NCBI GenBank assembly: GCA_029781115.1
Contig: JAKOXG010000006.1
Span: 124,001 to 188,000 of the forward strand
Reading direction: 5' to 3'
DNA length: 64,000 nucleotides
Source of the DNA: Candidatus Cloacimonadota bacterium
GTDB taxonomy: Bacteria; Cloacimonadota; Cloacimonadia; Cloacimonadales; Cloacimonadaceae
In this document: positions 4,501-53,942 of the stretch, piece by piece
How the letters are laid out: each line of letters begins with the position of its first letter
How positions within the stretch are numbered: position 1 is the first letter of the stretch
Translations under genes and position numbers: made by a program
Notes under the pieces: generated by a model
Told to the model about the DNA's origin: nothing
Database searches by the model: none
The model's input: only the letters and a program-made list of their open reading frames with translations

Positions 4501-5883
4501 GCTGGGGTCTATTATCATGTCGCTATGTTTGACGATACTACGGTGTTGGCCTGGTGTGGGAGTTCCATAAAATATACCACTATAGTACAAATCTTTGTTG
4601 GCGGCTTTTTCATGGACAGCAATCACCAGATTGTCTGTGTTATTGTACAAAAATGGGTAATCCAGCTCAATCTCAACCCAGCCATAATTACGAGTTATCT
4701 CCACATGGCCATCAAAGACGAGCTCCATTTCACTCTCCGGAACCCAATCAGTGCCATCCGAAAACTCCGTTTTATCGGAGTGACCCATATATATTTCCCA
4801 ATGATTACTGGAATAGGTAGGGAGCCCCCCATTCCATAAGTAAGATATTTTCTCAATGCGTTGGTCTTCTATATCTACCTCGGATTGCAAAATAATGCTC
4901 TGAGAATAGGTGTAATCCTGAGAAGCAGCTATGGGCAGCCCATAGTCCTCACTCCTGTCGCCAATCGCCACCCCTGACTCTACTTTAAAGTAGCGTGTTT
5001 CAGATGGAGGCGAAAAGCCGATATTGTTTCTGGCTACCACATGCCAAGAGTGCCGTCCCGCTTCTAAGCCATTGATGAAGTATCGGTTCTCCGGCTGGTT
5101 TTCACTCACCAACTCCCCATTGATATAGACATCATACCCACTTGCGTCTGGCTGTCCCGGAGGAAACTGAGACCAGCTATTGTGGGTTATCCTCCAATCC
5201 AGGGGCTGACCATTGACCAAAGTGGCATTGTTGTTAGGGGCTCTCAACCAAGGAGCAACCGGCACCTCGGTATCCGGAAACACAAGCTGAAGCGCAGGGA
5301 CAAAATACTTCCTCTCGCTGGCAGTGGGTGGGGCATTGATGTTGATGTCATAATTCTCATAATCCCCATAACACAAGGTGCGACTCGCGCCACTGTCATC
5401 CCCACTCCAGGACAAAGTGCCAGCCCGGGAATAGTTGCTGGCATAGACTGCAATCACCAGGTTGTCTACGTTGTTGTAAGCGAAGGAAGTATCCAAGATA
5501 AATTCTATCCACTCATGACCTCCGGGAGGAAGGTTTATCGGAGCCGGGCCCCAGAACACCTCAGTCAGACTGGCTGCAGGTTCCCAATCTGTGAGTGAGC
5601 CAAAAGCATTGCGCGTGGTGTGCCCCAGGTAAATCCTCCAGATCTGGCTATTGTTCAAGCTTCCAGTGGCGAAAGATGTATCAACCATGAACCTGAGCTT
5701 GAGAATCTCACCCTGGTGATTGATCTGAGATTTATGATAGATCTGCTGGCTATAACTGGAGCAACAATAAACATTTACTGGAGCGTCATCATTACCGTAA
5801 AAAGGTTGCACGACATTGAGCGTAGCAGCATAAAGGCTGAAGGCGAGCGTAAACAACGCAATCAAAACGGATAATCTTTTCAT
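1570..5883 (-). CDS. Large secreted multidomain surface protein with C-terminal sorting domain (copy B)
   Basis: 1437 residues with a signal peptide (1-19, cleavage after SLYA). Visible architecture: beta-sandwich modules at about 25-205, 305-490, 600-760 and 870-1040, each recognisable by YSQSI or similar, a WxIYMGH or equivalent, and a YNNxDNLVIAV motif. Between them lie Fn3-like segments (about 210-300 and 1145-1240), an ASH-like choice-of-anchor segment (about 500-600), two CARDB-like segments (about 775-870, 1045-1140) and a carboxypeptidase-regulatory-like fold (about 1245-1320). It ends with YPNPFNP plus an 80-residue FlgD/Por-type sorting domain, so export to the cell surface or medium is likely. 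It is a full-length paralogue of the 7464-11795 gene. The Shine-Dalgarno AGGAG precedes ATG at 5883. The ligand is unknown; an adhesin or structural surface role is inferred from domains only. Confidence 0.9.
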   Translation of the reverse strand: MKRLSVLIALFTLAFSLYAATLNVVQPFYGNDDAPVNVYCCSSYSQQIYHKSQINHQGEILKLRFMVDTSFATGSLNNSQIWRIYLGHTTRNAFGSLTDWEPAASLTEVFWGPAPINLPPGGHEWIEFILDTSFAYNNVDNLVIAVYASNYSRAGTLSWSGDDSGASRTLCYGDYENYDININAPPTASERKYFVPALQLVFPDTEVPVAPWLRAPNNNATLVNGQPLDWRITHNSWSQFPPGQPDASGYDVYINGELVSENQPENRYFINGLEAGRHSWHVVARNNIGFSPPSETRYFKVESGVAIGDRSEDYGLPIAASQDYTYSQSIILQSEVDIEDQRIEKISYLWNGGLPTYSSNHWEIYMGHSDKTEFSDGTDWVPESEMELVFDGHVEITRNYGWVEIELDYPFLYNNTDNLVIAVHEKAANKDLYYSGIFYGTPTPGQHRSIVKHSDMIIDPSTAIEGSLIEGRPNILMRFGQRPAEPIFQVVPTALDYEQIMNGEPNTLSVRVTNMGGGVINLSLADLSFVGPNADEFTLDPANLPAQLGPMQYVHIPVSVRGVTTGPISAALRFVVEGEYHDVDLAAEVMPTNVVVIGDGTQSQFAPLILAPGVYRSYAFYTADQISGIGNIDMIAWDCVAASNEPTFYVIRAKNTNEDNFKPISWLTYTEDMTVLRVGRYDGSSLGWQMFEPYRPFVYTGGNLIIGVETDYPFGDSSDAHNMFRYTDSGELNHQTWRPANNQYGGRASTDSKVPNIMLHFSGGAENDICVLGINGPLAAAVGRASRYTVRIRNNGINAQANYQVKLMGPNDTELAAVNGPPVDSDAFAEVVLPWTPATSGTIAIYAKVEMAGDELVQNNLSDPITVDVPPEGTQAVTIGKGDRLEYMPMNFHNDSSFCQSLYLAEELGFVSGTISSLVLYNQFYANLHDKHTIIYLGSTYQNDLNAGFIPASELTLVYDGEIDYPVGTNNIHINFQTPYVHTGGNLVMLFYRPYDSSDYDADLRFRIQIAGDNRTRLATRKYGDLDPFNPPNNTTLTGKFPQVSFFYSEDPYENELAALSITGDSSATVGSVSNYTVSIKNYGSVDQTNYTVKLMGPDEVVLASVDGPPISSMQSLDVVLPWTPATVGSQVIHAKVELAGDEFTANNLTRGLEITVFPVGTAEVNVEVNKGNDAVIISWAGSKGLAGYTVYRLQAGQEQNEAAWTELPPEPGDAFKVIDTDWLTLPDGDYRWAVKTVYSDGVASLPRISGILTNEVQTGKIVGVVKTKTNLAIAGATVSNGRLSATTNSLGEYILMVPVGSRTLEVTAEGFDSATVENVMVSQGLFTSLNLIMLEGSGDPEVPVAATALHGNYPNPFNPKTTISYSVKQSGKVCLNIYNIKGQLVRTLLNEHRDTGHHESFFDGEDDCGRALASGVYFVKMNAPGYRKVIKIMLMK

Positions 5884-7463: not shown

Positions 7464-10400
7464 CTATTTCATCAACATCATCTTGGAACTCTTCTGATAT
7501 CCCGGAGCTATCATCCTGACAAGATATACACCGCTTGCCAAGGGGCATCCGGCATCGTCTCTGCCATCAAAGACCTTCCTATAATGACCGGTAGCGTGGT
7601 CTTCGTTCAGCAAGGTTCTCACCAATTGGCCTTTGACGTTGTAGATGATCAGCCTCACCCTGCCCGCTTCCTTCACGCTATAATTGATCGTAGTTTCAGG
7701 ATTGAAGGGGTTGGGGTAGTTGCCATTCAGAGCTGTGGCTGCCACCGGAATCTGGGGATCATCGACAGGCGTGTTTAACGGCAAATAGAAATTCAAATCA
7801 GTGTTGCCGTCTGGGACTATTACCACATCTGTCACGACATGGTTCTGATGTCCGGGTGCTGATGCTGTCATCGTGTAAGTGCCTGCAGGGAGCGTGAAGC
7901 TGTAGCGTCCGTAAGTATCTGTAATGGCATTTATCATGCCGTTGCTTATGGTTGCTCCGCTAACTCCCATGTATGTATTGGCTCTGTACACTTTCCCTGT
8001 CAGGGTCCCACATGGCACACTCCTGGATAAGAAGTTGGAGAAGCCTGGCAGAGAAACCCGGTCCCCAGTGTAAACGGCTTTGACAGCCCAACAATAGTTT
8101 CCGCTGGGAAGTCCAAGCCAAACCGGGTCAATATAGCTGAGCTCGGTGATTGGTTCATCAGTCAGGCTCACCCAAGTGTCTTCCTGATACCTCTGGATAA
8201 ATAGCAGCCGATATACCTTGTATCCGATAAATGTGGGCATGTCCAAATCTTCCGGATCGGCGGCTGGAGTTTGAGCTGCCCAAGCTATTTCCACAACTTC
8301 ACCGGCATCATCAAGCGTAGCAGTCATTTCCTCTACACCCAGGGGATAAACCATGACCCCAAGTGCTTCGGCGCTGTTGTTTATCGGGATTTCATCGCCA
8401 TTCAGCTCAACTTTGCCGTAGATGGTATAGCTCCCCAATGCTGTCGGGATCCAAGGGATGGCCACATTCAAGCTTTGCAGGCTGCCTATGGGAGGCCCGG
8501 CTACCGCTGCCAGCTCGGTCTCATCTGACCTCATCAGCTTTACTTGATAATTATCTTGGACTACTACACCGTTATTACGGATGCGCACCGTGTAGTCTTG
8601 GGCTACTCCCGCCGTGGCGCTTTCCGCTCCTCTGAGATACAGAGCGTACAGATCGTTTGCCAACAACTCCGCAGTGAAGAAGAAGGTGGCTTTTGGATAG
8701 GTGCTTACAAGCGTTCCTTCGGGAGGGTTGTTAGGATCTACAGGTTGGGTGATATTACTGAGGTGAGCATGGCGCCCACGGTTGCTACCGGTCTGGCACT
8801 TAAAGTAGTATTGACCATACCATACAGAAGATTCGCCCACAGGACGATGGAACATCACCACCAGGTTTCCTCCTGTATACACAAAGGGTACCCGTAAATT
8901 GATGAGAATGGCATTTTCACCTTGGGGGAAATTCAATAGCCCATCATACACCGGGGTCAATTGCGTGGCAGGTATAAATCCCGTGCTCAGGTCTTGCTGA
9001 TCCGTAGTTCCCATGTAGATCACAGCACGCCTGCCAGACGCCTGATACATAAACTGGTTGTAGATAACCATGGAATAGATGGTTCCACTGGCAATGCCCA
9101 ATTCATCAGCCGTATAGATGGTTTCATAGAGATAGTCACTCGCCAATAAATCCAGCGGATAACGGGCCAGCTCATCACCTGAACCGATGTCGATGGTTTG
9201 ACGGCCTTCGGGTTGGACGTTTATCATTATTGCTGTTGTCTGATTGTTGGTGAGCACTTCATCGCCGGCAAGCTCCACTTTGCCATAGACGTTGAATGCA
9301 CCCTCAACAGTGGGTATCCAGGGGATCTCTACCTCAATGGTCTCGCCACTATTAATAGGCGGGCCATTCACCACCGCCAGTTCTGCACCCTCCGATCCCA
9401 TCAGCTTTACCTGATAGTCAGCCTGCACATTGCTGCCGTTGTTTCTGATGCGCACATTATAGTTTGAGGCCACTCCCACAATGGGTATGGGATCGCCGCT
9501 GATCCTTGTAGCACCGATATCGTTCTCCCAATCATAAGCAAACTGCAACATGATATTGGGCATCAAACCGTTTACCTGTCCAGAGTCCGTGGGGGGCCCA
9601 TCATATCCACAATGATACAGGTGCCTGCTTTCAACAACATCAGTACATTTAAATGAATACCTGCTCCAGCCATCGTAAACAACGTTGGTCTGCACGGCAA
9701 TAATCAGATTCTGACCCGTATAGACAAAGAGGGTATCCAAAACAAGCTTCTGCCAGCCCGGTTCAGCGAAGGTTATCGTGCCCTGTTTGAGCAGGGTCAT
9801 TTGTGAGAACATATTATTCCAGGTTGAGTTCCTGATGCAGGTGTCAGTGGTGTTTTTAGCCCAAATCTTATATCTGACAGGCAAATCATCGCTGACGCCG
9901 TGACAGTCCCACCCGATCATTTGCAAGGTACCGATGCTGTTTATCTCATCCGCTTTATAGAGCGTGGCAGAACTACTATATTCGTATTCGGTCTCAAAAG
10001 GATAAGCTTGGGCTGAGGTGCCATCTCCTATGATGGTGTTATGGCCAAGAGTTACCATTGCAGCCAGTTCCACATCATAGTTTTCCCCTTGATAAACAAT
10101 GCGCAGTGTGGCAGAGATTTGCCCGGAGGTAGTGCCGGTCAGAGTGACGGGAACCACCAAATCTGTCCAAAAATCCAGAGCTATGGGCAGGTTCGCAGGA
10201 TCGAAGGAGAATTGATCCGCATTGGGACCCACGATGCTGATATCGCTCTCGGCAAGGTTGATATGCCCAACGCCCTTGTTCTTGACCGTCATATTGAGCG
10301 TCACAGGATCACTGCTGATAACAACGCCATAATCCAAAGCGGTGGGCGCAACACTCATGACGGGTGTGGTGAGCAGTTCGCCCGTCCAGATCAGAATATT

Positions 10401-42700: not shown

Positions 42701-42724
42701 TCGAAAATGAGTATGGAGCCTATT

Positions 42725-45181
42725 ATGAAAGATATCAAGTTCATTTGCACCACGCTACTCCTTATCCTGCTATGCTTTAGCTTGGGCGCACAGAAAGCAT
42801 ATGTAGACCCCGAAAACACCATGCACTCCATCGCCAATATCGATGACGTCTTCACCCCTTACGTCAACCCATCTCTGCTGGGCATTAGCTTTGCCGATGG
42901 TATTGGCTTTGGCACAAGCTACGATGAAGAAGATACTTACAAGCAGCATTGGATCTTCTTTGCCCCCGGTGGCTTTGCATATACCTACGAAAATCGAAAC
43001 GACGTCAGCTACCACAACCTGGCCTTTGGAAATCCCCTCGGTGATGGACCCATCTCCAAAAACATCCACATCGGCACCCGCTATAGCTGGAGAAATTCCA
43101 AGTTCAGCAAAAGCTGGTTGAGAAGCGGTGTTACCATCCGCCCCCACAACAGTTTATCGCTGGCCATGGTGTGGGACAACCCCTATAAACAATCCCCCGC
43201 ATACAGATTTGGCGCTTCAATACGTCCTTTGGAGTTTCTCAATTCCAACCTGGCACACCGCTTGGAATTGAGCGCTGACGTAAATTACAACCGTGATCCC
43301 CTGGTCGTAAACGCCAAAAGAGAATTTAAGAACCCGCTGCTGGGCATCAACACAGAAATTGTAAATGGCCTCAAGATTGGCGCTTCCTACGATCTCGACA
43401 GCAAGGACGCCACGCTCGGTTTTAGCCTGCGCTTTGGCAAGGTAAATCTGGGTAACCACATTCTCAAGCCTGATAAGGGTGATACTTACACCGTAGACTA
43501 CGCTCAAATTGGCACCTTGGATTACAAACCATTTTTGGGCATTGCACCCCGCAAATGGCACAATATGAAGCTCTCCGGCAGCATCGTAAGCTACAAAACA
43601 CCCACCTTCTCGGTCGGCCCCTTCACCGTCTTCGATTCCACCACCCGCAGCGTGGAGGAAGTGATCGGAGAACTCAAGAAAGCGGCACAAGAGCCCGGCG
43701 TGGAAGGCATCCTGCTGGTGAACCCCTCCTTTGCCACCTCCTTTGCGCTGATGCAAGAGCTGACGCGGGCATTTGAAGCCTTCAAAGCCACCGGCAAACA
43801 CGTGGCCTGCTACTATGACAACCTCTCCAACGGTGGCTATGTCTTTGCTGCCCCCATCGCAGACAAAATCTGGCTCAACCCCATGGGAATCCTGGACTTA
43901 AAAGGCCTGGCCATCCAAAGCCCCTATTTCGGTGATCTCCTCAGCGAGCTGGGCATTGAAGTGCTCAATTTCCGCAGTCACAGATACAAAAGTGCCGGCA
44001 ACATCTTCACCGAATCTTCCATAACTGAGGCGGAAAGAGAAGTCTACGACTCGATTTTGCAGACCTACCTGGATCAGTTCATCGCCCAAATCTCCAAAGG
44101 CAGAGCCGGAAAGCTGGTCGGCAGCGTGGAAGCCGCCATCAACGAAGGCCCCTACTTCAACGCTCAAGATGCGCTGGCTAAAGGACTTGTGGACGGACTG
44201 GTTTACCAGGACGAACTGCCCGAGCTGCTCAAAGCTGAATTTGGCTTCAAGAAGCAAAGCAAGCAGCTGGCCAACTATCATGACTACAACTGGCACAAGA
44301 AACCGGCCCAGAAAATCGCCGCCATCTACGCCAAGGGCAATATCGTGATGGGCAAAGGCAAACCCGGCAAAACCATCGCCGCCGAAACCACTGTGGATTT
44401 GATCCGCAAAGCCCGTAAAAACCCGAAATACAAAGGCATTATCCTCAGAGTGGACAGCGGTGGCGGCTCAGCCCAAGCCTCCGACATCATCCTGCGCGAA
44501 CTGGCGCTGGCACAGACCGAAAACAAAAAGCCCGTGGTAGTCTCCATGGCCGGTGCGGCAGCCTCCGGTGGCTATTACATTTCCTGCAAAGCAGATAAGA
44601 TCGTTGCCGAAGCCTCAACCCTCACCGGCTCCATCGGTGTGATCGGCCTGGGATTCAACACGGAAAGAATGTTCAACAAAATCCGCATCAATTGGTCAAC
44701 CGTCAAAAAAGGCGAGAATGCAGACTTCCCAAACCCCTTCCGCAGCTGGACTGACACCGAAAAACAACGCATGACAGATATGATTGAACTGATTTATGAA
44801 GGCTTTGTGGGTAAGGTGGCCGACGGACGCAAAAACCTCAGCCTGGCTCAGGTGCATGAATATGCGCAAGGCCGCGTTTGGAGCGGGAAACAAGCCTATG
44901 ACCGTGGTCTGGTGGACGACTTGGGCGGCATGGACAAAGCGCTTGAGCACATGCGGCAACTCACCGGCATCACTGGCGAAATCCAGCTTGTGGACGCCAC
45001 CAGCAAAGAGGACGCCATCGAGATCAATATGAAACCCATCTCGCTGACCAAAGCCTTCGTGCCTGAAATGGCGCTGGAGATCGAGGATAGCTACAAGCAG
45101 GTCTACGAGCTCTGGAAACAATATGAAGGCCAAAACGCCCTGATGCTCTGCCCTGTGCAGGAATTGATCTTGGACTTCTAA
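42725..45181 (+). CDS. sppA: Outer-membrane-barrel-like domain fused to signal peptide peptidase SppA
   Basis: 818 residues from ATG at 42725 (GGAG upstream; puts the signal peptide MKDIKFICTTLLLILLCFSL at residue 1). Residues about 25-285 are a PorV/barrel-like region of amphipathic strands (VNPSLLGISFADGIGFG, RYSWRNSKFSKSW). Residues about 290-818 are a double SppA unit: the catalytic Lys422 in RYKSAGNIF and the nucleophile Ser614 in GAAASGGYY, both at the places expected from E. coli SppA. SppA normally degrades cleaved signal peptides in the inner membrane. An outer-membrane-like N-terminal domain on it is unusual. Confidence 0.87.
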   Translation: MKDIKFICTTLLLILLCFSLGAQKAYVDPENTMHSIANIDDVFTPYVNPSLLGISFADGIGFGTSYDEEDTYKQHWIFFAPGGFAYTYENRNDVSYHNLAFGNPLGDGPISKNIHIGTRYSWRNSKFSKSWLRSGVTIRPHNSLSLAMVWDNPYKQSPAYRFGASIRPLEFLNSNLAHRLELSADVNYNRDPLVVNAKREFKNPLLGINTEIVNGLKIGASYDLDSKDATLGFSLRFGKVNLGNHILKPDKGDTYTVDYAQIGTLDYKPFLGIAPRKWHNMKLSGSIVSYKTPTFSVGPFTVFDSTTRSVEEVIGELKKAAQEPGVEGILLVNPSFATSFALMQELTRAFEAFKATGKHVACYYDNLSNGGYVFAAPIADKIWLNPMGILDLKGLAIQSPYFGDLLSELGIEVLNFRSHRYKSAGNIFTESSITEAEREVYDSILQTYLDQFIAQISKGRAGKLVGSVEAAINEGPYFNAQDALAKGLVDGLVYQDELPELLKAEFGFKKQSKQLANYHDYNWHKKPAQKIAAIYAKGNIVMGKGKPGKTIAAETTVDLIRKARKNPKYKGIILRVDSGGGSAQASDIILRELALAQTENKKPVVVSMAGAAASGGYYISCKADKIVAEASTLTGSIGVIGLGFNTERMFNKIRINWSTVKKGENADFPNPFRSWTDTEKQRMTDMIELIYEGFVGKVADGRKNLSLAQVHEYAQGRVWSGKQAYDRGLVDDLGGMDKALEHMRQLTGITGEIQLVDATSKEDAIEINMKPISLTKAFVPEMALEIEDSYKQVYELWKQYEGQNALMLCPVQELILDF

Positions 45182-45208
45182 AGCTTACATCTTACCTTTC
45201 AATAAGTT

Positions 45209-45245
45209 CCGGGTTCTCGTGTATACGGGAGCCCGGTTTTCTTTT
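45209..45245 (+). terminator. Rho-independent terminator after sppA
   Basis: Stem CCGGGTTCTCGT paired with ACGGGAGCCCGG (one-base offsets inside) followed by TTTTCTTTT; 27 nt past the stop. Confidence 0.85.
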
Positions 45246-45510
45246 GTGTCACCAAAACTGCAAATAGATGCCACGCTCATCACCTACCAAAATAGTAGGA
45301 GTTCCTACCCCTGATCCGAATGCAGAAATCCCCGGACAAAAATCAATATTTTACCTCAAAGAGCAATCTCGTCAGGCAATACTGCCACTTTCGACCCTCC
45401 TCAAATGCCCATTCTATGCGGACTCCCAACTCCTTCCCTGCTGCTCTCCTGCTCCTCTAACAAGTAACGAGTAAGAAAGCAGGCAGTTAGGAGGAAGAGC
45501 GAAGTGGGAG
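45246..45510 (-). repeat. Dispersed ~270-nt intergenic repeat, copy 2
   Basis: In reverse orientation to the copy at 12460-12735. The part 45399-45510 is about 90% identical to 12460-12571; 45246-45398 is a looser match that keeps the CCTAC/GTAGG hairpin at about 45288-45310. It lies between the sppA terminator and the left end of the accessory island. No coding potential. Confidence 0.8.
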
Positions 45511-45806
45511 CGAAGGCATATTTTTGGAAGTGGCTGACCTGGGTGGAAAGTCAATATTTGCGCCAGTCTCTGGTTCATGAAAACAAATTGTCGGGTAAAA
45601 CCGGCAGCGTCATCCAGCAAAGTCCTGGGCAAACTACGGAGTTTGGATAATGTGGATATTATAGCTTGCTGGAATAGCTAACTCTCTTTGCTAAAGCTAC
45701 TTGCCTCAAAATGAACTCGCCCAGCTTGGATTGGGCATTATCTCCAAACCGGGCGAGTGTCTCACTTACGGTCCTAACAACCCATAGTTTTGGCTAATCC
45801 AAATAA
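45511..45806. other. Non-coding stretch with a long inverted repeat
   Basis: No gene is credible here. An 8-bp perfect inverted repeat, ACTCGCCC (45715-45722) and GGGCGAGT (45751-45758), encloses 28 nt with a nested GCCCA/TGGGC stem. It lacks a clean T run on either strand, so it is not a standard terminator. It sits about 50 nt past the last minus-strand island gene. Confidence 0.5.
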
Positions 45807-46025
45807 TCAGACTTCGGTATCTGCCCCACTTCTTCGGAAAACGAACTTGAGCAACATTGACTCATCCCGCCTTTCTGTCGTGATCGCCTCCACAAAGCTA
45901 AGCTGAGTGACCAAAGCTCGCAGGTAGGTCTCAACCAATGGATAAGCACGCTTTGGCATCGTCAGCTCAGAGGCCGGCAAGCCATTGTTGTAATCGTCAT
46001 GCAAACGCTGCAAAATGGGGATCAT
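45807..46025 (-). CDS. Small hypothetical protein
   Basis: 72 residues, no signal peptide or membrane segment, predicted mostly helical (ILQRLHDDYNNGLPASELTM, split at YNN). It starts 7 nt after the stop of the PH-like acidic protein and shares its direction, which supports a real gene. The ribosome binding site is poor (GACAGACCG). I do not recognise a family. Confidence 0.45.
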   Translation of the reverse strand: MIPILQRLHDDYNNGLPASELTMPKRAYPLVETYLRALVTQLSFVEAITTERRDESMLLKFVFRRSGADTEV

Positions 46026-46032
46026 CGGTCTG

Positions 46033-46740
46033 TCAGTCTAATTCTTCTGAGGCATCGTCGTCGTAATCATCATCTTCATCTTCAAGATCAGTGTCCGATT
46101 CATCCTCATAGTCAGTTTCATCATCAGCTTCAAATTTAGAGATAATGCTATCTGTAATTGATTTCACACTATTGATAAGGGAACTCACGACGTTGCCAGT
46201 CCCTTGGGGCGTGTCCTTCTTATCTTCTGCGTCTTCAGAATCTCTTTCCGGGGCATCGGCCTCGTCATTTGAATCAGAATCGCAGCTTTGGCCATCCTCA
46301 GCTTCCTCATCCTGATTATGCAGCTGCATGGCATACTCGATCCACTCCTGCATCTGCTCCAGGTCCATGCCATCCAAAGTGGTGCTGAGCCGGTAAACCG
46401 CCCCGGAACGCATATGCAGCTTGAGGGCAGAAATATCCACTCCCAAAAAACTGTCTTCATCCATGCTGCAATACCTGATGTCTTTGAACCTGGCGATGAA
46501 CTGAGAGGTGGAATTCCCCTTATCCTTCACACACAGCGCCTCAGTGGTGAAAACCATGCCGGAAGCGCCATTGCTGAAGATGCTGGTGTCGTTGCTATCG
46601 ACAATCTGCCCCTTGGTGTAGCGCCCCTTGCAGATCGTGGAAAGCATCTTCCTGATCCTGGGCATATAATCCTCTTCGATGGGCTCAAAACCCGTGATCT
46701 CCTCATACTTCTCGATCAGTAGTTTCTTCATGTTATCCAT
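46033..46740 (-). CDS. PH-like domain protein with long acidic tail
   Basis: 235 residues. Residues about 40-145 read like a bacterial PH/GRAM-type beta barrel closed by a helix: GASGMVFTTEALCVKDKG, FIARFKDIRYC, GAVYRLSTTLDGMDLEQMQEWIEYAM (split at STTLDG). Residues about 146-235 are almost entirely acidic and low complexity, interrupted by a hydrophobic-amphipathic helix (NVVSSLINSVKSITDSIISKF, split at NSVK). AAGGAGTATAC precedes ATG at 46740. It has its own upstream copy of the island's terminator element. It may bind membranes or a partner through the PH-like part (inference). Confidence 0.7.
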   Translation of the reverse strand: MDNMKKLLIEKYEEITGFEPIEEDYMPRIRKMLSTICKGRYTKGQIVDSNDTSIFSNGASGMVFTTEALCVKDKGNSTSQFIARFKDIRYCSMDEDSFLGVDISALKLHMRSGAVYRLSTTLDGMDLEQMQEWIEYAMQLHNQDEEAEDGQSCDSDSNDEADAPERDSEDAEDKKDTPQGTGNVVSSLINSVKSITDSIISKFEADDETDYEDESDTDLEDEDDDYDDDASEELD

Positions 46741-46764
46741 GTATACTCCTTATGGTGGGATTCT

Positions 46765-46835
46765 CAGGCCGGTTTCCCGTGCCGAATCCAACACCTGTGC
46801 GGAGTATAAAAAAGCCCCTGGACAGATCAGGGGCA
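46765..46835 (-). terminator. Intercistronic element with terminator, copy 1 (after the LRAT gene)
   Basis: On the minus strand the hairpin GCCCCTGATCTGTCCAGGGGC (46834-46814; stem GCCCCTG/CAGGGGC) is followed by TTTTTTATAC. The whole 71-nt block matches 47464-47534 at about 60 positions and precedes an AAGGAGTA ribosome binding site in both places. Confidence 0.85.
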
Positions 46836-46860
46836 GGGGGATAAAGAATTTGCAGAAGTC

Positions 46861-47430
46861 TTATCTTCTTATGATCGTGTCATCGAGCAAATCTGAAATA
46901 ATGTTGCTGGATTTGTCGTATCCCTTCCACAAAAGCCACTTTTCAGCTCCCAGATAGTCCTTTGCTGTCATCTTCAACATCCAGGTGAAATTGTCAGCGT
47001 TTTCAAAGTCATCAGTGAGGCAACCCGAGGTAAACTGATGGCAATTGTCAAAAACCAGGTTGTAATCTCTGCTCTTACCAACCATGGATAGGGCACGTTC
47101 TGCTGTCTCGTCGTCACCCACCGGGTCCCCATCACAATCACAGGAAACAAAGATAATTTTGGCTTCGGTAAAACCGCCCAGACGTCTTAGAAACCTCTCG
47201 GGAGATACGCAGCGGATTTCTCCGCTACCCTCGAGATGCACAATCCGGTTGTTGCCCACATAAATGCCGCTATGATACTCTGTTTCAACAAGATCGCATA
47301 AAACTACCGAGCCGGGCAGTGGGTATACCTTTTCTTTGAAAGCACTTTCAGCGTTTCGCAGCAGATTGCGTATTCTCTTTCTCGTCTTATTGGGACTTTC
47401 AATAATACTGAATGGGAATTTCTTTAGCAT
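46861..47430 (-). CDS. LRAT/NlpC-P60-type acyltransferase or hydrolase
   Basis: 189 residues, no signal peptide. The LRAT-domain core is at about 38-140: GSVVLCDLVETEYHSGIYVG with His53, then VHLEG with His65, and the cysteine box DNCHQFTSGC with Cys130. The 12-residue gap between the two histidines equals that of human HRASLS/PLAAT enzymes (H23 and H35), which cleave or transfer acyl chains of phospholipids. The fold is shared with viral and NlpC/P60 proteins, so a peptidase activity cannot be ruled out. AAAGGAGTAAC precedes ATG. The gene is bracketed by two copies of the same intercistronic element. Confidence 0.82.
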   Translation of the reverse strand: MLKKFPFSIIESPNKTRKRIRNLLRNAESAFKEKVYPLPGSVVLCDLVETEYHSGIYVGNNRIVHLEGSGEIRCVSPERFLRRLGGFTEAKIIFVSCDCDGDPVGDDETAERALSMVGKSRDYNLVFDNCHQFTSGCLTDDFENADNFTWMLKMTAKDYLGAEKWLLWKGYDKSSNIISDLLDDTIIRR

Positions 47431-47463
47431 ATGTTACTCCTTTTGCTGTTTATAAACGTTGGA

Positions 47464-47534
47464 CAGGCCGGCTTTCCGTGCCAAATCCATCGTTTGGACG
47501 CAGTATAAATAAGCCCCTGGACAGATCAGGGGCA
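47464..47534 (-). terminator. Intercistronic element with terminator, copy 2 (after the AAA+ gene)
   Basis: Minus-strand hairpin identical to copy 1 (stem GCCCCTG/CAGGGGC, 47533-47513) followed by TTATTTATAC, 46 nt past the AAA+ stop. About 85% identical to 46765-46835 over 71 nt. A third copy of the hairpin core lies at 53517-53536. Confidence 0.85.
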
Positions 47535-47579
47535 TAAGAACCAATATTCTAAAACATGTAGGGCACCCTTGATTGGCTA

Positions 47580-49106
47580 TCATGAGGATTCATTACTGTC
47601 GCATTCATAACTTGCATTCTTGACATCAATCAATTCCAAGGACTTTCTCAACTCTTCGATCTTATCTTTCAGAGATTTAGAAATTGGTTTTGTATCTTTG
47701 ATTTCTTTGATCAAATCCTCGGTGCTAATAGTCTTTTTCCCAGATAGAAAGGCATTTTCGATGGTATTCTTAACAACAGATTCAATATCCGCTCCACTAA
47801 AACCCTTGGTTTTCTGCAGTAACTGGATCACATCGATATCCGTTGACCACTTTCCACGCTTTTTCAGGTGAATTTCGAAGATTCTCTTTCTTTCGTCAGC
47901 ACTGGGGAAATCTACCAGAAAGATCTCATCAAACCTTCCTTTTCTCAAGAATTCCGGAGGAAGGATAGAGATGTCGTTGGAAGTTGCAACCACGAATACC
48001 GTATTATCTTTTTCCTGAAGCCAGGTTAGGAAGAAACCAAATAGTCTTGTGGTTACTTCATGGCTGCCACCAGCTTGCCCGATACCGGAGAATGCTTTTT
48101 CGATCTCATCAACCCAAAGCACACACGGGCTGATAGCTTCTGCTATGCTGATAGCTCTGCGCATGTTGCCTTCACTTTCTCCGACATATTTACCAAGCAA
48201 CTTGCCGACATCCAGACGGATCAAAGGCACGCCAAAGAGTTTTGCCGTTGCCTTGGCTGTAAGGCTCTTCCCGCAGCCGGGCATGCCAACGATCATCAGC
48301 CCTTTGGGTATATCAACCCCATACTTTACAGCTTCATTGAGATTGTCCAAAACTTGGCTTTTCTTTCTCAGCCAATCTTTCATGCGATCAAGCCCGCCAA
48401 CATCGTCGATAGAGTCATCAAGTCTCAATATCTCAAGAACACCGGATTTTGCGATTATCTGCTCTTTTTCTTCGATGATCAAGCTCAGGTCTCCTGCTTC
48501 GATTGTGCCGCTGTTTTGATAAGCCAAGTTTAAGATTTGCGTGATTTCAAATTCGGAAAACCCTTTCAAAGACCAGGTCAACTCTTCAGAGAAAGCCTCA
48601 TCAATATTGAAGTCGTTTGCTTTGGCGAAGTTAATGATCAAGTCCTTGATTCCGGCTTGGGAGGGAAGCGGTGGTTCGAAGATCGTTATCAGTTGCTCAA
48701 GCTCGGGTGGAATGGTTAAGACGGTGGACACAATAAATATAGTCACATTGTAATCGGGATCATGTAGGTTTCTGAGGGCGATTGACTTCAGCAGACTGAT
48801 GATTACCGGATTGGATATGCTGCTGTGGACATCTTTTAAAACCAGAAAGTTAGTTCCCTTTTGAGAAAGAGTATATGACCTTAAGAATTTATCAAGTGTT
48901 AAACTTAAATTGCTCTTCTTCGTCTTAAAGTCAACCTCACCCAAGCCCTCATTATACTCATGAACGCTGATATCCTTGGACTCATTACTGAGCTGTTCTA
49001 TTATTGCGTCAAAAGCATGAAAGTCAAAGGTGGGGACATAAATGATGGGCCTCAGTGCATCGATATATGATGCAAGTTTCTTCAATTGCAATTGCTCGGT
49101 CATCAT
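47580..49106 (-). CDS. Ycf46-like AAA+ ATPase
   Basis: 508 residues. An N-terminal degenerate AAA-like domain (about 1-215, [34 protein letters not shown]) precedes a full AAA+ module: [16 protein letters not shown], Walker A GMPGCGKS (274-281), [17 protein letters not shown]-type pore region, Walker B VLWVDE (D333-E334), sensor 1 ATSND, arginine finger RKGRFDE (388-394). This architecture matches the Ycf46 family of cyanobacteria and plastids, relatives of FtsH and CDC48. The substrate is unknown. It is fourth in an overlapping operon with three unfamiliar proteins; its ATG overlaps the previous stop. Confidence 0.88.
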
Positions 49107-50011
49107 ATCTCCAAGTACACAATTGGGTTAACTTTGTCTGACGACTTGTATACCAAACCGTCAAGAATGAGAAATTTACCGTTGGCTTTTGTGGATGTAA
49201 TCTCCTCCAGTTTGTCCTTTGCGCTTCTGATAATGGAAGTGCCAGGCACTGAGATTATCAGAACTTTGGTTTTTTCTGTTTGCAGATCCTTCCAATATGA
49301 TTTTGTTTCACCGGTAAAGATATGCAGTCCAATTCGTTGCATCATATCATCGAAAGCCTTGTCCTTATCGAGTTTTGGGCAAATAAGTCTTTTTGCTTCA
49401 TCCCTGTTAGTAATCTTGAATGTCTTTACCAATGATTTGCGGATATCTTCATTTTGTAAAAGCAAATCACGCAGTGTAGAATTCATTAATATCGCATAAA
49501 TCATCAGTGGGGCATCTCGCGTGAACTGATGGTAGAATCGGGTGTTATCAAGCTGAAACAACCTACTGTAGTTTTCAGATATTTCCTTGGTAGTTGCTTT
49601 CAAAAACGCCATATCGTGTTTGTGTTCAATCAGTTTTGACTTCAATGTCTCGTAACCTTTATGATAGCCATCGATAGCCCGTTCTATTTTGCTGCCTGTT
49701 TTAGTCCATTTTTGTAATTCTGCTTCTCTTTTTGCCCGGTATTCAAGCGAATACAAGCTCTCCTCAATCACACTCTCATTGGTTTCTATCTTAAATATCT
49801 TGATCAACTCAACTATCACAGAATTCTTACTCTTAATAGCCTCAACTTGCTGTAGTTCTTCATCGTATCCTCTGACTTTGAGCCATTTTTGCAACAAACC
49901 ATCTTGATAAAGACGCATTATGTCCTCGACACAAAAGTTCTCCTGAAGGTCTTTGATGCTACGGACTTGCTGGCCGTCCAGAATGAGATTGAATTTAATC
50001 GTTTTTGCCAT
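49103..50011 (-). CDS. Hypothetical 302-residue protein, partner of the AAA+ ATPase
   Basis: 302 residues, soluble, helical in the middle (about 90-170). The N-terminus (FNLILDGQQVRSIKDLQENF, then IMRLYQDGLLQKWLKVRGYDEEL) is a pattern I have seen at the start of other uncharacterised bacterial proteins, but I cannot name the domain. The centre has NTRFYHQFTRDAPLMIYAILM; the C-terminus is alpha-beta (VLIISVPGTSII, FLILDGLVYKS). It overlaps the membrane protein gene by 17 nt and the AAA+ gene by 4 nt, strong evidence of joint function. AAGGAGAAAA-type ribosome binding site. Confidence 0.7.
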   Translation of the reverse strand: MAKTIKFNLILDGQQVRSIKDLQENFCVEDIMRLYQDGLLQKWLKVRGYDEELQQVEAIKSKNSVIVELIKIFKIETNESVIEESLYSLEYRAKREAELQKWTKTGSKIERAIDGYHKGYETLKSKLIEHKHDMAFLKATTKEISENYSRLFQLDNTRFYHQFTRDAPLMIYAILMNSTLRDLLLQNEDIRKSLVKTFKITNRDEAKRLICPKLDKDKAFDDMMQRIGLHIFTGETKSYWKDLQTEKTKVLIISVPGTSIIRSAKDKLEEITSTKANGKFLILDGLVYKSSDKVNPIVYLEI

Positions 50012-50804
50012 TTTTCTTCTCCTGTTTTTTTATACTTTCTCTATGTGGTATATTCAAAACTTCTCCTATGTACTGAACTACGCAATCATCTGATGTGGAT
50101 ATCCATTTCTTACACTTCTGCCAAACCGGCTTAAATCCTATCCACACCAATCTTGCTGTTAAAAGAAGTAATAGAAGAATAATTATACACAAGACTGACA
50201 TGGTATCTATTACATAAGTAGCACCTTCCTCAAAGGCTTGAACAGTAGTATAGATCACTGAAGGGCAAAGCAGCATGCAAACCAAGGAAGATATCACCAG
50301 CACTAGGATCAGTTTGCAAATCCCTATTAATTTTCCAGTTGACGTTTCCTGCTTTACGCGCTCCCAATCATGTTTAAGCAGGTAAGATATAGCTTTAGAC
50401 AGATAGTTCAAGTTTTCATCAGATATCTTCTCTTCTTGCTCTCCTTCTTGCTTTACAATCAATTTCAACAGTTCATTGTCTTCGTCATCATAAGGGTTCA
50501 ATCTGACCTGAAAGAAGGTCTTGGCTTCTGCCACAGTCTCAAATCTGATATCACTTGCACAAACTCTCCCTTTCTCTTTATCTTGCTCTTTATCTTCCTT
50601 TTTCTCTTTCGCTTTGTCGGCGTTTCCAATTCTTCTCAATTCAACTGCTGCCGCCCTTAACTCTTCTCTCCACCTTTGTCTCTCTTCAGTTACATACTTC
50701 AGTTTATTGGATTTATTATGAGTTAGTATCGACACGAAAGCTGAAATCAGTGCTGCTATTACAGTTGAGCTTAGTAGAGCCAATATTATCTCTGTTGTAT
50801 TCAT
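49995..50804 (-). CDS. Membrane protein with charged coiled segment
   Basis: 269 residues. Transmembrane helices at about 5-27, 158-187 and 198-223. After the first helix comes KLKYVTEERQRWREELR and a strongly charged lysine/glutamate stretch (about 60-80), predicted cytoplasmic. The C-terminal tail is basic (SIKKQEKKNGKND). Proteins with a short N-terminal anchor followed by the ERxxWREELR motif are common in bacterial accessory regions (recall). No catalytic motif is seen. The gene begins 12 nt after the glycine-zipper gene. Confidence 0.7.
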   Translation of the reverse strand: MNTTEIILALLSSTVIAALISAFVSILTHNKSNKLKYVTEERQRWREELRAAAVELRRIGNADKAKEKKEDKEQDKEKGRVCASDIRFETVAEAKTFFQVRLNPYDDEDNELLKLIVKQEGEQEEKISDENLNYLSKAISYLLKHDWERVKQETSTGKLIGICKLILVLVISSLVCMLLCPSVIYTTVQAFEEGATYVIDTMSVLCIIILLLLLLTARLVWIGFKPVWQKCKKWISTSDDCVVQYIGEVLNIPHRESIKKQEKKNGKND

Positions 50805-50816
50805 GAAGCACCCACC

Positions 50817-51836
50817 TTACCAGGAAAAGAAGAAATCTGAAATTGCACTTGCAGCATTGGATATGAAGTTACCAACACTTGTAATTACATTAGATACAAC
50901 TTCTACACCCTTGGTTATCACCTTGCCAACCGCTCTGCCAGCAACGTTTCCCACGAAGGCACCGATTTCTGATCCTACATACGATCCTGCGGGGCCAAAT
51001 ATTGAGCCAACACTTGCACCTATGTTAGCACCAATATTCTCGCCTGCTTCAGCACAGAAATCCTCAATCACAGCACCCAGTTTTGAAGTTTTCCGGTTAA
51101 GGATATACCCCTGAGCTTCAATGGGATTGATTTCTCCCGTACCAACCTGGTACACGGCTTTCGCGGCTGACATACCTTGATCAACGATCATTGTCAACTG
51201 ACTGTTTGTGACCTTGTCAAACTGTTCAGGCAGCATTCCTTTTTCCTTTGCTATTACGGCAGCGGAGGAAACTGCTTTCACGTATTGCGGATCTTTATCA
51301 TTGTTTAGTGGAGTGTCAAAGTAGTCTCTGAGTGCAACGATTTCCTTTTTGAAATCAATAGCTTCAACACGCTCTACTGCTTTTGGTTCCAAGAAATTGG
51401 TGTTTTGCATAGTGTCCACGATATCTTGGATAATGACCGTTTCCCTAATGTTCCCGAGGTCACTATCGGATAGAGAAGCATCTTCTGATACCGATGGAAC
51501 GTTCAATTCCCGGCCAACATCGACCAGGATTTTGTTCATACTCAAGCCAGTTTTGGAAGTATCAAGTCCCTGTATTTTTGCGATTAGCCACTCTTCCCTG
51601 GTTGAGCCTTTGCTCATGCTATCCCTTAAATCATTGTACACGTTTTCAATCCGATCCACAGTTCTGATTACCTCGTTAATACTCTTCTGAGCTTCTTTTC
51701 TGCTGCAACCAGTGTTTTGCATCATCACATTAACGAGAGTTTCATTTGTGCTCTCTGGGTCTGAATTGACAATCCCACTGCATGAATCCACTATGTCAAT
51801 GAATGTCCCCATCTTGTCTTCGATTTTCTTTGTCAT
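50817..51836 (-). CDS. Glycine-zipper membrane-interacting protein
   Basis: 339 residues, no signal peptide. The first 230 residues are helical and charged. Residues about 265-312 form a glycine zipper (GENIGANIGASVGSIFGPAG, then YVGSEIGAFVGNVAGRAVG), a sequence type that inserts into or packs against membranes and occurs in pore-forming effectors and some phage and toxin proteins. A final amphipathic tail (ISNAASAISDFFFSW) follows. AAGGAG precedes ATG at 51836. It is first in the overlapping four-gene core, 44 nt after the WYL regulator. Function unknown. Confidence 0.72.
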   Translation of the reverse strand: MTKKIEDKMGTFIDIVDSCSGIVNSDPESTNETLVNVMMQNTGCSRKEAQKSINEVIRTVDRIENVYNDLRDSMSKGSTREEWLIAKIQGLDTSKTGLSMNKILVDVGRELNVPSVSEDASLSDSDLGNIRETVIIQDIVDTMQNTNFLEPKAVERVEAIDFKKEIVALRDYFDTPLNNDKDPQYVKAVSSAAVIAKEKGMLPEQFDKVTNSQLTMIVDQGMSAAKAVYQVGTGEINPIEAQGYILNRKTSKLGAVIEDFCAEAGENIGANIGASVGSIFGPAGSYVGSEIGAFVGNVAGRAVGKVITKGVEVVSNVITSVGNFISNAASAISDFFFSW

Positions 51837-51880
51837 TTTGTTGCTCCTTATTGTATTTATCTTGATTTCATGTTAAATGA

Positions 51881-52867
51881 TCACTTGGTAACATAGAGCT
51901 TGGTGATTGATTCAGCTTCAGTTTGAATGGTAGCTCTCAGCTCCCCCGGCTCCAACACCTTCACCTTGGCACCATAGCTCAGCACAAACTTCTTCATTTC
52001 GCTGAGTGAATTGGCAGGCATTTCCAGGATCACTGATTTGTCTTCAAGGCGGGTAAGCTTCTGCTCTGCATGCCAGATTCTTTCGGCGATGTAATCCGAG
52101 GTGGGCGGCAGAAACTGCAGCTTTACCTGGAACACATCCCCTGTATAGATGCCAAAACCGCTGTCAAAATAGGTGCCGGAATCAAAATCTACCTCTTGTT
52201 GGGGTTTGTCGCTCAGCTTGATCTCATCCATACGGTTGAGGGCAAAGACGATCACCTGGTCTATCTTTTTGTAGTAGCCGGCCAAGTAGAAGTTGTGATT
52301 GAAATACTTGATGGCCAAGGGCGAGACTTCTTTGTGGCTGTGCCTTTGGTTTTGCACGCTGTAGTAGTCGAAGGAGATCATCTTATAATTCAGGATCGCT
52401 TTCAGCACCAAGCTCAGCTTTTCGGGCAGTGAGTCAGAATCTGAGAGAACCCCGGTACTGTCGCTGAGCATCGCCTTTTGCACATCACGGTAAAACTTCA
52501 GGATGGATTTATCCAGCTTGGTTTCGATCTTGGTAAGGATGCCTTTGATGCTTTGGGCGGTCACCAAACCCGCTTCCTCCCAAAGCTTACTGGCCAATGA
52601 GAGGTTGAGGATATCCTCGTAATTGAGCGTGTAATCCGGCAGACGATAATTCTCGGTGAAGTAGTAGAAAACCTGATTTCCCCGCTCGATGTCCTGATCC
52701 TCATAGATGGGAAATCCGCAGGAGGAGAGATTGGTAATGTCCCTGGCAATGGTTTTCTTGGACACCGCAAAGTGGGTGGCCAATTCACCCTTGGAGATGC
52801 CACTGAGACGATGCTGATTGATCAGGTGCAGCATCTGCCATTGCCGGTACAAAGCCTGATTTCTCAC
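51881..52867 (-). CDS. WYL-domain transcriptional regulator
   Basis: 328 residues from GTG at 52867. An N-terminal winged helix-turn-helix (about 5-60, LSGISKGELATHFAVSKKTI, then ARDITNLSSCGFPI) is followed by a WYL domain (about 150-225: ISFDYYSVQNQ, VSPLAIKYFNHNFYLAGYYK, FALNRMDEI) and a WCX-type C-terminal extension. Such proteins bind nucleic-acid or nucleotide ligands and control phage-defence and stress operons (BrxR, CapW are examples). It lies at the head of the accessory island in the same direction as the genes it probably controls. Confidence 0.9.
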   Translation of the reverse strand: MRNQALYRQWQMLHLINQHRLSGISKGELATHFAVSKKTIARDITNLSSCGFPIYEDQDIERGNQVFYYFTENYRLPDYTLNYEDILNLSLASKLWEEAGLVTAQSIKGILTKIETKLDKSILKFYRDVQKAMLSDSTGVLSDSDSLPEKLSLVLKAILNYKMISFDYYSVQNQRHSHKEVSPLAIKYFNHNFYLAGYYKKIDQVIVFALNRMDEIKLSDKPQQEVDFDSGTYFDSGFGIYTGDVFQVKLQFLPPTSDYIAERIWHAEQKLTRLEDKSVILEMPANSLSEMKKFVLSYGAKVKVLEPGELRATIQTEAESITKLYVTK

Positions 52868-52968
52868 AAAATCCTCGCCTTATTTTCGATTTTGGCAATC
52901 ATTTTCACCTTGCGAAATAAGTCAATGCTTTTCTTTGTAATCATTGCACTCAATCGAGTGTTGCCCTG

Positions 52969-53466
52969 CTATCTGAACACTTTATTCCAGGCGGGGGAGT
53001 ATTTGCCGATAAAGTAGCGTTCCAACTGTTTGGTCGCTGCCACTGCTTCCTCATCCGTGCCAACCAGCAAGAGATAGATCTTCAGATCAGCAGCATTGGC
53101 GTGCATGAGACGTCCTGAGGTGTGCTTTCGGGCACTATCGGATGCTCTGGTGTAGTCGGATAATCTCTTCCTGATGCCACCATTGGAATACTCGACAGCC
53201 CTGCCGACATACATTACTTCTCCATCCAGTTCGGCCTTGTAAAGCCCAACGTAAGAGGAGTAGCGGCTCAAGTCGATGCTGTCCAGATAGCCCACATACT
53301 GCCATCCGCTTTCCCATTCTCTGAGTGTTTTGCCCCCAATAGTTGGGACTTCATTTCTGCCGGTTGCCGGATTCCTGCTGCCACTTCTCATTTGCTTGCT
53401 TTGCTGCTTCATGGCTTCATCAATGACGGCATTTCCAATCTTCTTAAGTGTTTTCAATAAGCTCAT
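52969..53466 (-). CDS. GIY-YIG-like nuclease domain protein
   Basis: 165 residues from ATG at 53466, chosen for the AGGAG 7 nt upstream. The C-terminal 115 residues carry the GIY-YIG pattern in the variant form VGLYKAELDGEVMYVGRA (about 75-92), then IRKRLSDYTR and the helix LERYFIGKYSPAWNKVF with the conserved glutamate. The basic N-terminal segment (about 20-50) may bind DNA. Small stand-alone members can be nucleases or have lost activity. It precedes the WYL regulator by 101 nt, a gap that contains a palindrome (CACTC-AATC-GAGTG, 52947-52960). Confidence 0.75.
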   Translation of the reverse strand: MSLLKTLKKIGNAVIDEAMKQQSKQMRSGSRNPATGRNEVPTIGGKTLREWESGWQYVGYLDSIDLSRYSSYVGLYKAELDGEVMYVGRAVEYSNGGIRKRLSDYTRASDSARKHTSGRLMHANAADLKIYLLLVGTDEEAVAATKQLERYFIGKYSPAWNKVFR

Positions 53467-53942
53467 GTTGAACTCCTGAATATCATTTTTTGCATACGCA
53501 TACTCATGATAAACCACCCCCTGGACAGAACAGGGGTATAGGCCAAAAACATTGAGCCGCCAATGCTGGTGTAAATACTAACTTATTGTTTATCTGGTTA
53601 TTGGGTGACATGTTGAAGTTCCTCTTTTTTCACGTCTATGTTTGTTCGGCTAACCTGTTGCATTGTTTTTACGCTGGTGATAAAAGTCAAGTGTTTTCTC
53701 ATTTCAGGCTATCTGACACGTCGGAATTGAGCTTTGCGGAAAGTCAAAACCATCGGGAGCATCGGGTTGGGTAAAACGATAATGCGCATTGAGTCGGTGA
53801 TGCTGTATGAGAAAATATGCATGATTGGAATAAAATGTGCAGGGGAAGTATGTAGTGACTTGTAATTGAAGTAACACTATAAGGAGCCAAAACGGGCAGC
53901 GATGCTGTTCAACGCAGTATCTTAGAGCGGTTTTAGCTTAGC

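Follow-up and report, generated by a model that had tools for sequence, protein, structure and literature searches.

What kind of system is encoded by a compact block of nine minus-strand genes (45807-53466) in a Candidatus Cloacimonadota bacterium, and is it one unit? The block lies in a 64,000-nucleotide stretch (contig JAKOXG010000006.1 of assembly GCA_029781115.1), the whole of which we refer to as the window. A reading made from the sequence alone had proposed a single membrane-linked stress or defence island under WYL control. All nine open reading frames (ORFs) were found where that sequence-only reading had placed them, and the block is an insertion; rather than one nine-gene island, it is a portable module inside a separate frame. 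The middle genes are a known AAA/glycine-zipper pair in a stand-alone version, and the outer genes are a reusable chassis. The insertion and its genes are as follows.

45182..53824 (extent approximate), no strand: insertion, bordered by the S49-peptidase gene (42707-45181) and by the orthologous downstream region
52969..53466, minus: GIY, GIY-YIG-like, 165 amino acids (aa), first gene of the frame; Pfam E 0.011, below cut-off
51881..52867, minus: WYL, helix-turn-helix (HTH)-WYL-WCX regulator, 328 aa, GTG start; Pfam above cut-off
50817..51836, minus: GZ, glycine-zipper protein, 339 aa, amphipathic tail, short form lacking the nuclease block
49995..50804, minus: TMcc, membrane protein, 269 aa, charged middle, in the slot between GZ and U302
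49103..50011, minus: U302, putative adaptor or sensor, 302 aa; conserved N-terminal domain of ~85 aa, beta-rich C-terminal domain
47580..49106, minus: AAA, CDC48/SpoVK/Ycf46-type AAA+ ATPase, 508 aa; Pfam above cut-off
46861..47430, minus: LRAT, LRAT-fold protein, 189 aa; Pfam LRAT E 3e-9, above cut-off
46033..46740, minus: PHac, acidic-tailed protein, 235 aa, last main gene of the frame
45807..46025, minus: s72, 72-aa ORF, 7 nt past PHac

The nine genes are an insertion because the genes matching those on either side adjoin in two congeneric genomes, separated by 553 bp in G001 and by 240 bp in G003, with no N in either. A third genome, G002, is consistent with an empty site, but has a run of 125 N at that position. 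G+C content dips to 0.38-0.44 across ~47-52 kb, which bears out the AT-richer middle previously placed at about 47.6-51.8 kb; a second low stretch lies at 12001-13000 (0.43), and nowhere else in the window does the value fall below 0.42. Compared with 25 background ORFs of at least 250 aa (G+C 0.516 +/- 0.014; G+C at third codon positions, GC3, 0.638 +/- 0.049), the four middle genes are foreign in composition (G+C 0.43 for GZ, 0.38 for TMcc, 0.39 for U302 and 0.43 for AAA; GC3 0.37-0.48) and LRAT is so in part (G+C 0.45, GC3 0.50), while GIY, WYL, PHac and s72 lie near background (G+C 0.48-0.51, GC3 0.58-0.67). Uniformity with the flanks is thus confined to these outer genes. Codon usage gave z scores of 7.7 for GZ, 9.5 for TMcc, 4.9 for U302 and 5.2 for AAA against -0.1 to 1.8 for GIY, WYL, LRAT, PHac and s72, although codon z alone is unconvincing, as background genes reach 7.7 and sppA 7.1. 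The spacing from WYL through AAA is operon-like, with gaps of 44, 12, -17 and -4 nt between WYL, GZ, TMcc, U302 and AAA; the gaps that follow are 149 nt to LRAT and 120 nt to PHac, and at the other end GIY lies 101 nt ahead of WYL.

A scan of species genomes seeded with AAA yielded 47 loci, whose labels include Clostridia, Ignavibacteriales, Methylococcales, Chromatium, Paenibacillus, Synergistaceae, Lentisphaeria and Helicobacter. Two of these (L040 and L049) had no AAA ORF call, leaving 45, and 14 had short flanks, leaving a main set of 31 with at least 2.5 kb on both sides of AAA. Among the 31 full-flank loci, 28 have the U302 N-domain and 27 have GZ; 25 have the two together, 30 have at least one of them, and six have WYL. 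Among all 45 loci the corresponding counts were 34 for the U302 N-domain, 32 for GZ, 29 for both and 10 for WYL (within 8 kb). The WYL profile derives from the WYL genes of these same loci, and the partner counts are lower bounds, the ORF caller having missed GZ in L042 and U302 in L048, both visible to tblastn. The end of U302 lay within -40 to +200 nt of the AAA start in 22 cases, including the window, with a 4-nt overlap in six. Judged by gene content, GZ, U302 and AAA form a portable module with a patchy presence in several bacterial groups. These core families co-occur in other phyla, and their homologues are not core genes: counting the centre genome of each set, U302 was found in one of 60 genomes (its own), in two of 124 genomes of its own phylum, in six of 391 from the class of Peptostreptococcus (two being weak fragments) and in one of 369 from the class of a Methylococcales genome.

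Three candidates at these loci were rejected. A Microcystis gene between GZ and AAA is not U302; it encodes a CobW-type protein, and a U302-like piece adjoins it. A SIR2-like reading of L036:3606-5252 and a GIY-YIG reading of L009:6458-7030, both made by eye, found no Pfam support.

An insertion with a repeated element (the hairpins described below) would also suit a selfish genomic island, or an addiction module, that adds nothing net to defence, and at Methylococcales loci small ORFs between GZ and AAA look toxin-antitoxin-like when read by eye. None of the nine genes has a Pfam match to an integrase or a transposase, however, and the core is conserved over phyla; we regard this explanation as quite improbable.

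One locus, L005, holds the gene set between other flanks, with identities of 83% for GIY, 90% for WYL, 71% for GZ, 54% for TMcc, 75% for U302, 91% for AAA and 83% for PHac (first 152 residues). It cannot be taken as a Methanofollis gene set, the name under which the contig was deposited: the contig is most likely misbinned, because its flanks match G022, a genome of the window's own phylum (one flank protein 99% identical, flank DNA 97-98% on both sides, one flank ORF 79%).

In G063 the order is GIY-WYL-[AAA, 413 aa, ZorA-like, ZorB-like]-LRAT-PHac; one contig of G024 has GIY-WYL-[540 aa, 284 aa]-PHac, and another has WYL-[AAA, 407, 826, 228 aa]-LRAT, truncated by the contig ends. WYL precedes a patatin-dynamin protein and then the contig end in G069, and a 64-aa patatin-like fragment (BLAST) with dynamin-like proteins in G011; in G061 a dynamin-like protein (PADLOC LeoBC) stands ahead of PHac. 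The loci with ZorAB-like, patatin-dynamin or dynamin-like cargo are L149, L150, L151, L153, L156 and L157. PADLOC matched the G063 cargo to ZorA (3.9e-21, strongest along a stretch rich in coiled coil; a further match covers 88-627) and to ZorB (1.3e-20, nearly the whole protein), and Pfam found OmpA (2.1e-9), Patatin (5.6e-24) and Dynamin_N in the frame cargo. GIY-WYL ... (LRAT)-PHac is therefore a frame that holds other cargo in related genomes, known so far from the window's phylum. It is complete in the window, in G063 and in L005, where LRAT is truncated; one G024 contig has it without LRAT, and the others are partial.

As a side observation, the 540-aa gene of the two-gene G024 cargo (L150:1924-4410) is 34% identical over 424 aa to L018:3442-4950, a gene upstream of the U302-AAA-GZ set in Acetobacterium, and has a weak PADLOC PDC-M09B match.

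The mixed composition of the block, with outer genes near background and inner genes foreign, is what a chance cluster of unrelated accessory genes might look like. That explanation is already disfavoured and we give it hardly any credence, since the set recurs in L005 (with LRAT truncated), the complete frame recurs in G063, GIY-WYL-...-PHac recurs in one contig of G024, and parts of the frame occur in G022, G069, G011 and G061.

Part of the module is already known. Bell et al. (2024, PMC11090510) describe a SpoVK AAA beside a bacteriocin-like glycine-zipper protein in extended Type III-A CoCoNuTs, call the PD-(D/E)xK fold of the latter 'inactivated', and suggest stand-alone defensive cassettes. 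By family and neighbours, the pairs at L098 and L123 are the pair of Bell et al., and the window pair is homologous to it. The window AAA is 40% identical over 459 columns to the Enterobacter L098 ATPase and, like the CoCoNuT protein, is of SpoVK/CDC48 type, with a single Walker A at residue 274; its neighbour with a C-terminal glycine zipper belongs to the same family, with TMcc and U302 in between in the window, and both sets are suspected defence cassettes. In contrast to the CoCoNuT extension, the nine window genes include no VWA, CARF nuclease, kinase, phosphatase or McrBC, the window adds U302 and TMcc, its GZ is without the restriction-endonuclease-fold block, and its AAA has 508 aa, not 715. 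The module is not categorically new; the novelty lies in its stand-alone occurrence with U302, in a short GZ that lacks the nuclease block, and in a frame whose cargo can be exchanged. No description of the U302 form or of the frame was found in the open-licence PMC literature, and the parts of PMC8195603 that were available hold nothing on the module.

The two forms of GZ differ in their predicted output. The short form occurs in the window, L005, L006, L008 and L009 and a long form of ~500 aa elsewhere; the two are homologous (profile match, probability 99.8, E 1.4e-28). In the extra block of the long form, E, D and QxK do not vary across the 12 sequences chosen for alignment, and both long GZs of CoCoNuT-type operons (L098:2007-3578 and L123:9040-10611) retain these residues. 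Of 42 GZ-cluster ORFs, 23 fit a pattern made for the block; short forms, fragments and four long forms make up the remainder. As a whole the model of the long GZ is poor (pLDDT 62.4), and it is fairly confident at ~150-270; over its region 130-275 the top structural matches were PD-(D/E)XK structures (best Z 5.2), among them a restriction-endonuclease-fold protein, Can2, Hjc, EndoMS and several restriction enzymes, and it is this consistency of superfamily, not the Z values, that argues for a nuclease fold. Since the long form carries such a PD-(D/E)XK-like block, its output may be nucleic-acid cleavage at the membrane. The invariant E, D and QxK in 12 aligned long forms put in question the 'inactivated' label given in PMC11090510. 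The window GZ is without the block, and membrane damage would therefore be its expected output; its tail has a hydrophobic moment of 2.07, against 1.32 for shuffled 18-mers (mean of maxima). In a search of PDB by sequence, the best match of GZ was a tape-measure protein over the zipper (E 2.6e-5).

The slot between GZ and U302 varies in content, holding PDDEXK_5 in L017, a weak UDG match in L006 and TMcc in the window. TMcc has ~3 hydrophobic stretches on the Kyte-Doolittle scale, in agreement with its earlier description as a membrane protein; it is 54% identical in L005, and its first 49 aa are matched in L008. The N-domain of U302 is kept among relatives (alignment A1) while the remainder changes, the C-terminal part being Lcl_C in one Chromatium gene and DnaJ_C in one Lentisphaeria gene. 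An AlphaFold2 (AF2) model of U302 reached pLDDT 87.6, and residues 227-302 resemble a cupin or double-stranded beta-helix, weakly (Z ~5); by sequence, the best PDB match had E 0.22. Neither U302 alone nor its alignment found a relative in viral contigs.

In the genome of L039 (Chromatium okenii, G128) there are eight U302-profile matches, and one gene tested carries a C-terminal Lcl_C. Lcl_C is a fold family used by diversity-generating retroelements.

AAA has a single Walker A (residue 274) and an RKGR motif (388), both in the C-terminal ATPase, and a Walker B, VLWVDE, that was recognised by eye and missed by the pattern search. No Walker A was found in its N-terminal half, which is putatively a degenerate ATPase domain. 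The protein falls in a CDC48/FtsH-like clade, and this placement, together with the DnaJ_C on one U302 relative and the motifs of LRAT, would fit an accessory stress system for membrane or protein quality control, in which AAA extracts GZ and TMcc or damaged proteins, LRAT remodels lipids and WYL senses stress. Against this speak the very patchy distribution, slot genes that change and include a nuclease family, and the defence-type nature of the alternative cargo, and we consider a quality-control role unlikely.

The case for defence is one of association, through the ZorAB-like and patatin/dynamin cargo of the frame and through the neighbours of relatives, and it is on these grounds that the defence role proposed earlier is supported. 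In E. coli ZF34 the GZ-AAA pair occurs with VWA, Card1-like nuclease, PP2C, kinase and helicase genes, after BREX pglX/pglZ/brxL; the L098 query matched in four of 5426 E. coli genomes, over at least 80% of its length in three. McrC adjoins GZ-U302-AAA in Exiguobacterium, and nearby genes encode HsdM at L006, a type ISP enzyme at L041 and a TIR protein at L050. Taken by themselves, AAA relatives are more frequent than U302: they were found in 663 plasmid records at E<=1e-40 (50 with at least 80% coverage). Long GZ was found in 15 plasmid records. The island is, in our estimate, moderately probable as a mobile, defence-type (anti-phage type) island; its architecture is a matter of observation, and its defence function is what this association suggests.

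One plasmid, from Treponema, carries a full-length AAA relative (37%, residues 4-501) beside VgrG/Pvc8 and baseplate genes. Such a neighbourhood would suit a role in secretion and antagonism, AAA loading effectors into an injection or export apparatus and GZ being a bacteriocin-like exported toxin, as would the term 'bacteriocin-like' and the secretion suggested for a sister CoCoNuT extension by Bell et al. (2024, PMC11090510). Set against this, Pfam and NCBIfam found no secretion-apparatus gene among the nine, and the frame cargo of relatives is of defence type; the chance we allow this explanation is small.

The AAA core matches IetA of IetAS (E 3.2e-29) over residues 252-488 only, and Pfam gave no subtilase or peptidase match among the nine genes. 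IetS is a subtilase. In G063 the frame carries ZorA/ZorB-like cargo, but PADLOC finds neither ZorA nor ZorB among the nine window genes. Similarly, Leo-like genes are cargo of the frame in G069, G011 and G061 (PADLOC LeoA/LeoBC, of the system named Eleos), but no Leo gene was found by PADLOC in the window. WYL/BrxR regulators control defence islands (Picton et al. 2022, PMC9122601); the window likewise has an HTH-WYL-WCX regulator at the operon head, although its downstream genes are other ones and repression through DNA sites is putative here. MoxR-vWA ternary conflict systems (Kaur et al. 2020; Dore et al. 2024; PMC7159879, PMC10907252) also combine an AAA+ switch with changeable partner domains, some of them C-type-lectin-like sensors, whereas the window ATPase is CDC48-type, not MoxR, and Pfam gave no vWA in the window.

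Several observations weigh against reading the block as a defence island built around this module. Six of the 31 full-flank loci are short of a partner in the ORF set, and G072 has U302-AAA with no recognised GZ. GIY, LRAT and PHac lie beside the module in L005 alone among the 47 loci (tblastn, E<=0.01), a result that rules out a single ancient nine-gene system. As many as 103 phage records carry an AAA relative (E<=1e-20), 35 of them with at least 80% coverage, so AAA is not diagnostic of defence; PADLOC gives the module no name, its sole strong AAA matches being to the IetA core. The defence neighbours were chosen by eye with no control set, the ZorA-like assignment rests partly on a coiled-coil stretch, and the patatin and dynamin families have non-defence roles as well. 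On the structural side, GZ has no classical transmembrane stretch (maximum Kyte-Doolittle value 1.04), Foldseek found no match at E<=0.001 for the U302 and long-GZ models, the structural matches of both models have Z under 6 and share it with unrelated folds, and unrelated folds occur at similar Z elsewhere in the long-GZ model.

The frame is also accompanied by a repeated hairpin. The sequence-only reading had noted a dispersed repeat on the left side of the block; it is present, but on both sides, in three copies at ~46.8, 47.5 and 53.5 kb, which are the sole exact matches to the pattern in their own genome.

53475..53539, minus: hairpin repeat copy upstream of GIY; fold z -0.5, no better than shuffles
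47428..47535, minus: leader copy upstream of LRAT; terminator-like hairpin and second hairpin; fold z -3.0
46738..46836, minus: leader copy upstream of PHac; terminator-like hairpin and second hairpin; fold z -4.7

The exact pattern was found in none of 35 relatives and had no match in viral contigs. In the window, L005 and L149 a hairpin with a near-identical core stands ahead of both GIY and PHac; it also stands ahead of LRAT in the window, of PHac in L156 and of GIY in L154. The hairpin leader is tied to the frame. The PHac leader of L005 has a fold z of -3.3, and in the PHac leaders of both the window and L005 the predicted fold pairs AUACUCC with GGAGUAU in the ribosome-binding-site region. 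Covariation is thin, with a double change in two of 23 pairs and a term of +0.44 from five sequences. The five-sequence leader model matched nine of 124 genomes at E<=0.01; its strong matches number four, in three genomes, and all are training sequences. The LRAT leader gave an R1 match of 85.5 bits, though it is itself an R1 training sequence. Rfam returned no match at E<=1 on 44.5-55 kb. We suggest, from the predicted folds, that the leader may act as a regulatory RNA.

As for the outer genes themselves, Pfam supports the earlier labels of WYL regulator, AAA+ ATPase and LRAT-type enzyme; the GIY-YIG-like and glycine-zipper labels drew matches (for GZ, E 1.8e-4), both below cut-off, and the 'PH-like' label found no Pfam support. 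The sole profile match of PHac is PADLOC BnzA (residues 43-139, E 2.7e-6), and PHac, s72, TMcc and U302 have no usable Pfam match. Copies of GIY, 83-84% identical, precede WYL in L005, L149, L150 and L154. WYL has homologues in 12 of 124 genomes at E<=1e-20, with at least 75% identity in six, its own included, and is 75-92% identical in G063, G024, G069, G011 and G022; its putative control of the operon is plausible. LRAT has H (53) and NC (129), presumably the catalytic residues; it is 56% identical ahead of PHac in L149, and in L005 its C-terminal 59 aa alone are matched. PHac occurs in six of 124 genomes, its own included: G063, G061 and G024 have it, and G069 and G022 have part of it. The s72 product is 36% identical over 56 aa to a 308-aa protein that ends the L153 cargo (E 2.5e-6).

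Two further features were noted. An inverted-repeat stretch near the right end of the island (window 45710-45758; L005:9527-9550), common to the window and L005/L155, is a possible end signature of the island. Elsewhere in the window, large ORFs of ~1440 aa each (1570-5883 and 7464-11795) have a C-terminal segment of ~90 aa that is matched in relatives too.

How might such an island act? WYL would repress the operon as long as no ligand or signal of infection is present. The AAA+ ring, with one Walker A ATPase domain and one degenerate half, would hold the effector inactive or remodel it, and U302 would dock through its conserved N-domain and sense through its changeable C-terminal part. Once triggered, GZ, by its glycine zipper and amphipathic tail, would damage the host membrane together with TMcc and so stop phage replication through growth arrest or death, with LRAT as a lipid-acting second effector. 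This chain, pieced together from domain content, is doubtful in our estimation. More broadly, we put forward tentatively, as a proposal somewhat more apt to fail than to hold, that GZ-U302-AAA is an autonomous anti-phage system with a CDC48-type motor, a replaceable sensor-adaptor and an effector that is membrane-inserting in the short form or a membrane-tethered nuclease in the long form. In this phylum it would be an interchangeable cartridge of the WYL-PHac chassis, with terminator-like hairpins and structured leaders marking the exchange borders and checking the downstream genes.

If this reading is right, what has been an aside in a survey of restriction systems, the SpoVK/glycine-zipper pair, would become an immune module that stands by itself, can be tested and has a defined set of partners. 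The frame would then be a natural chassis, one set of regulator genes reused for unrelated cargo (Zorya-like, patatin-dynamin and AAA/glycine-zipper), and further systems would be found by inspecting the genes between WYL and PHac, an interval that in relatives may offer a route to further undescribed defence genes in the phylum.

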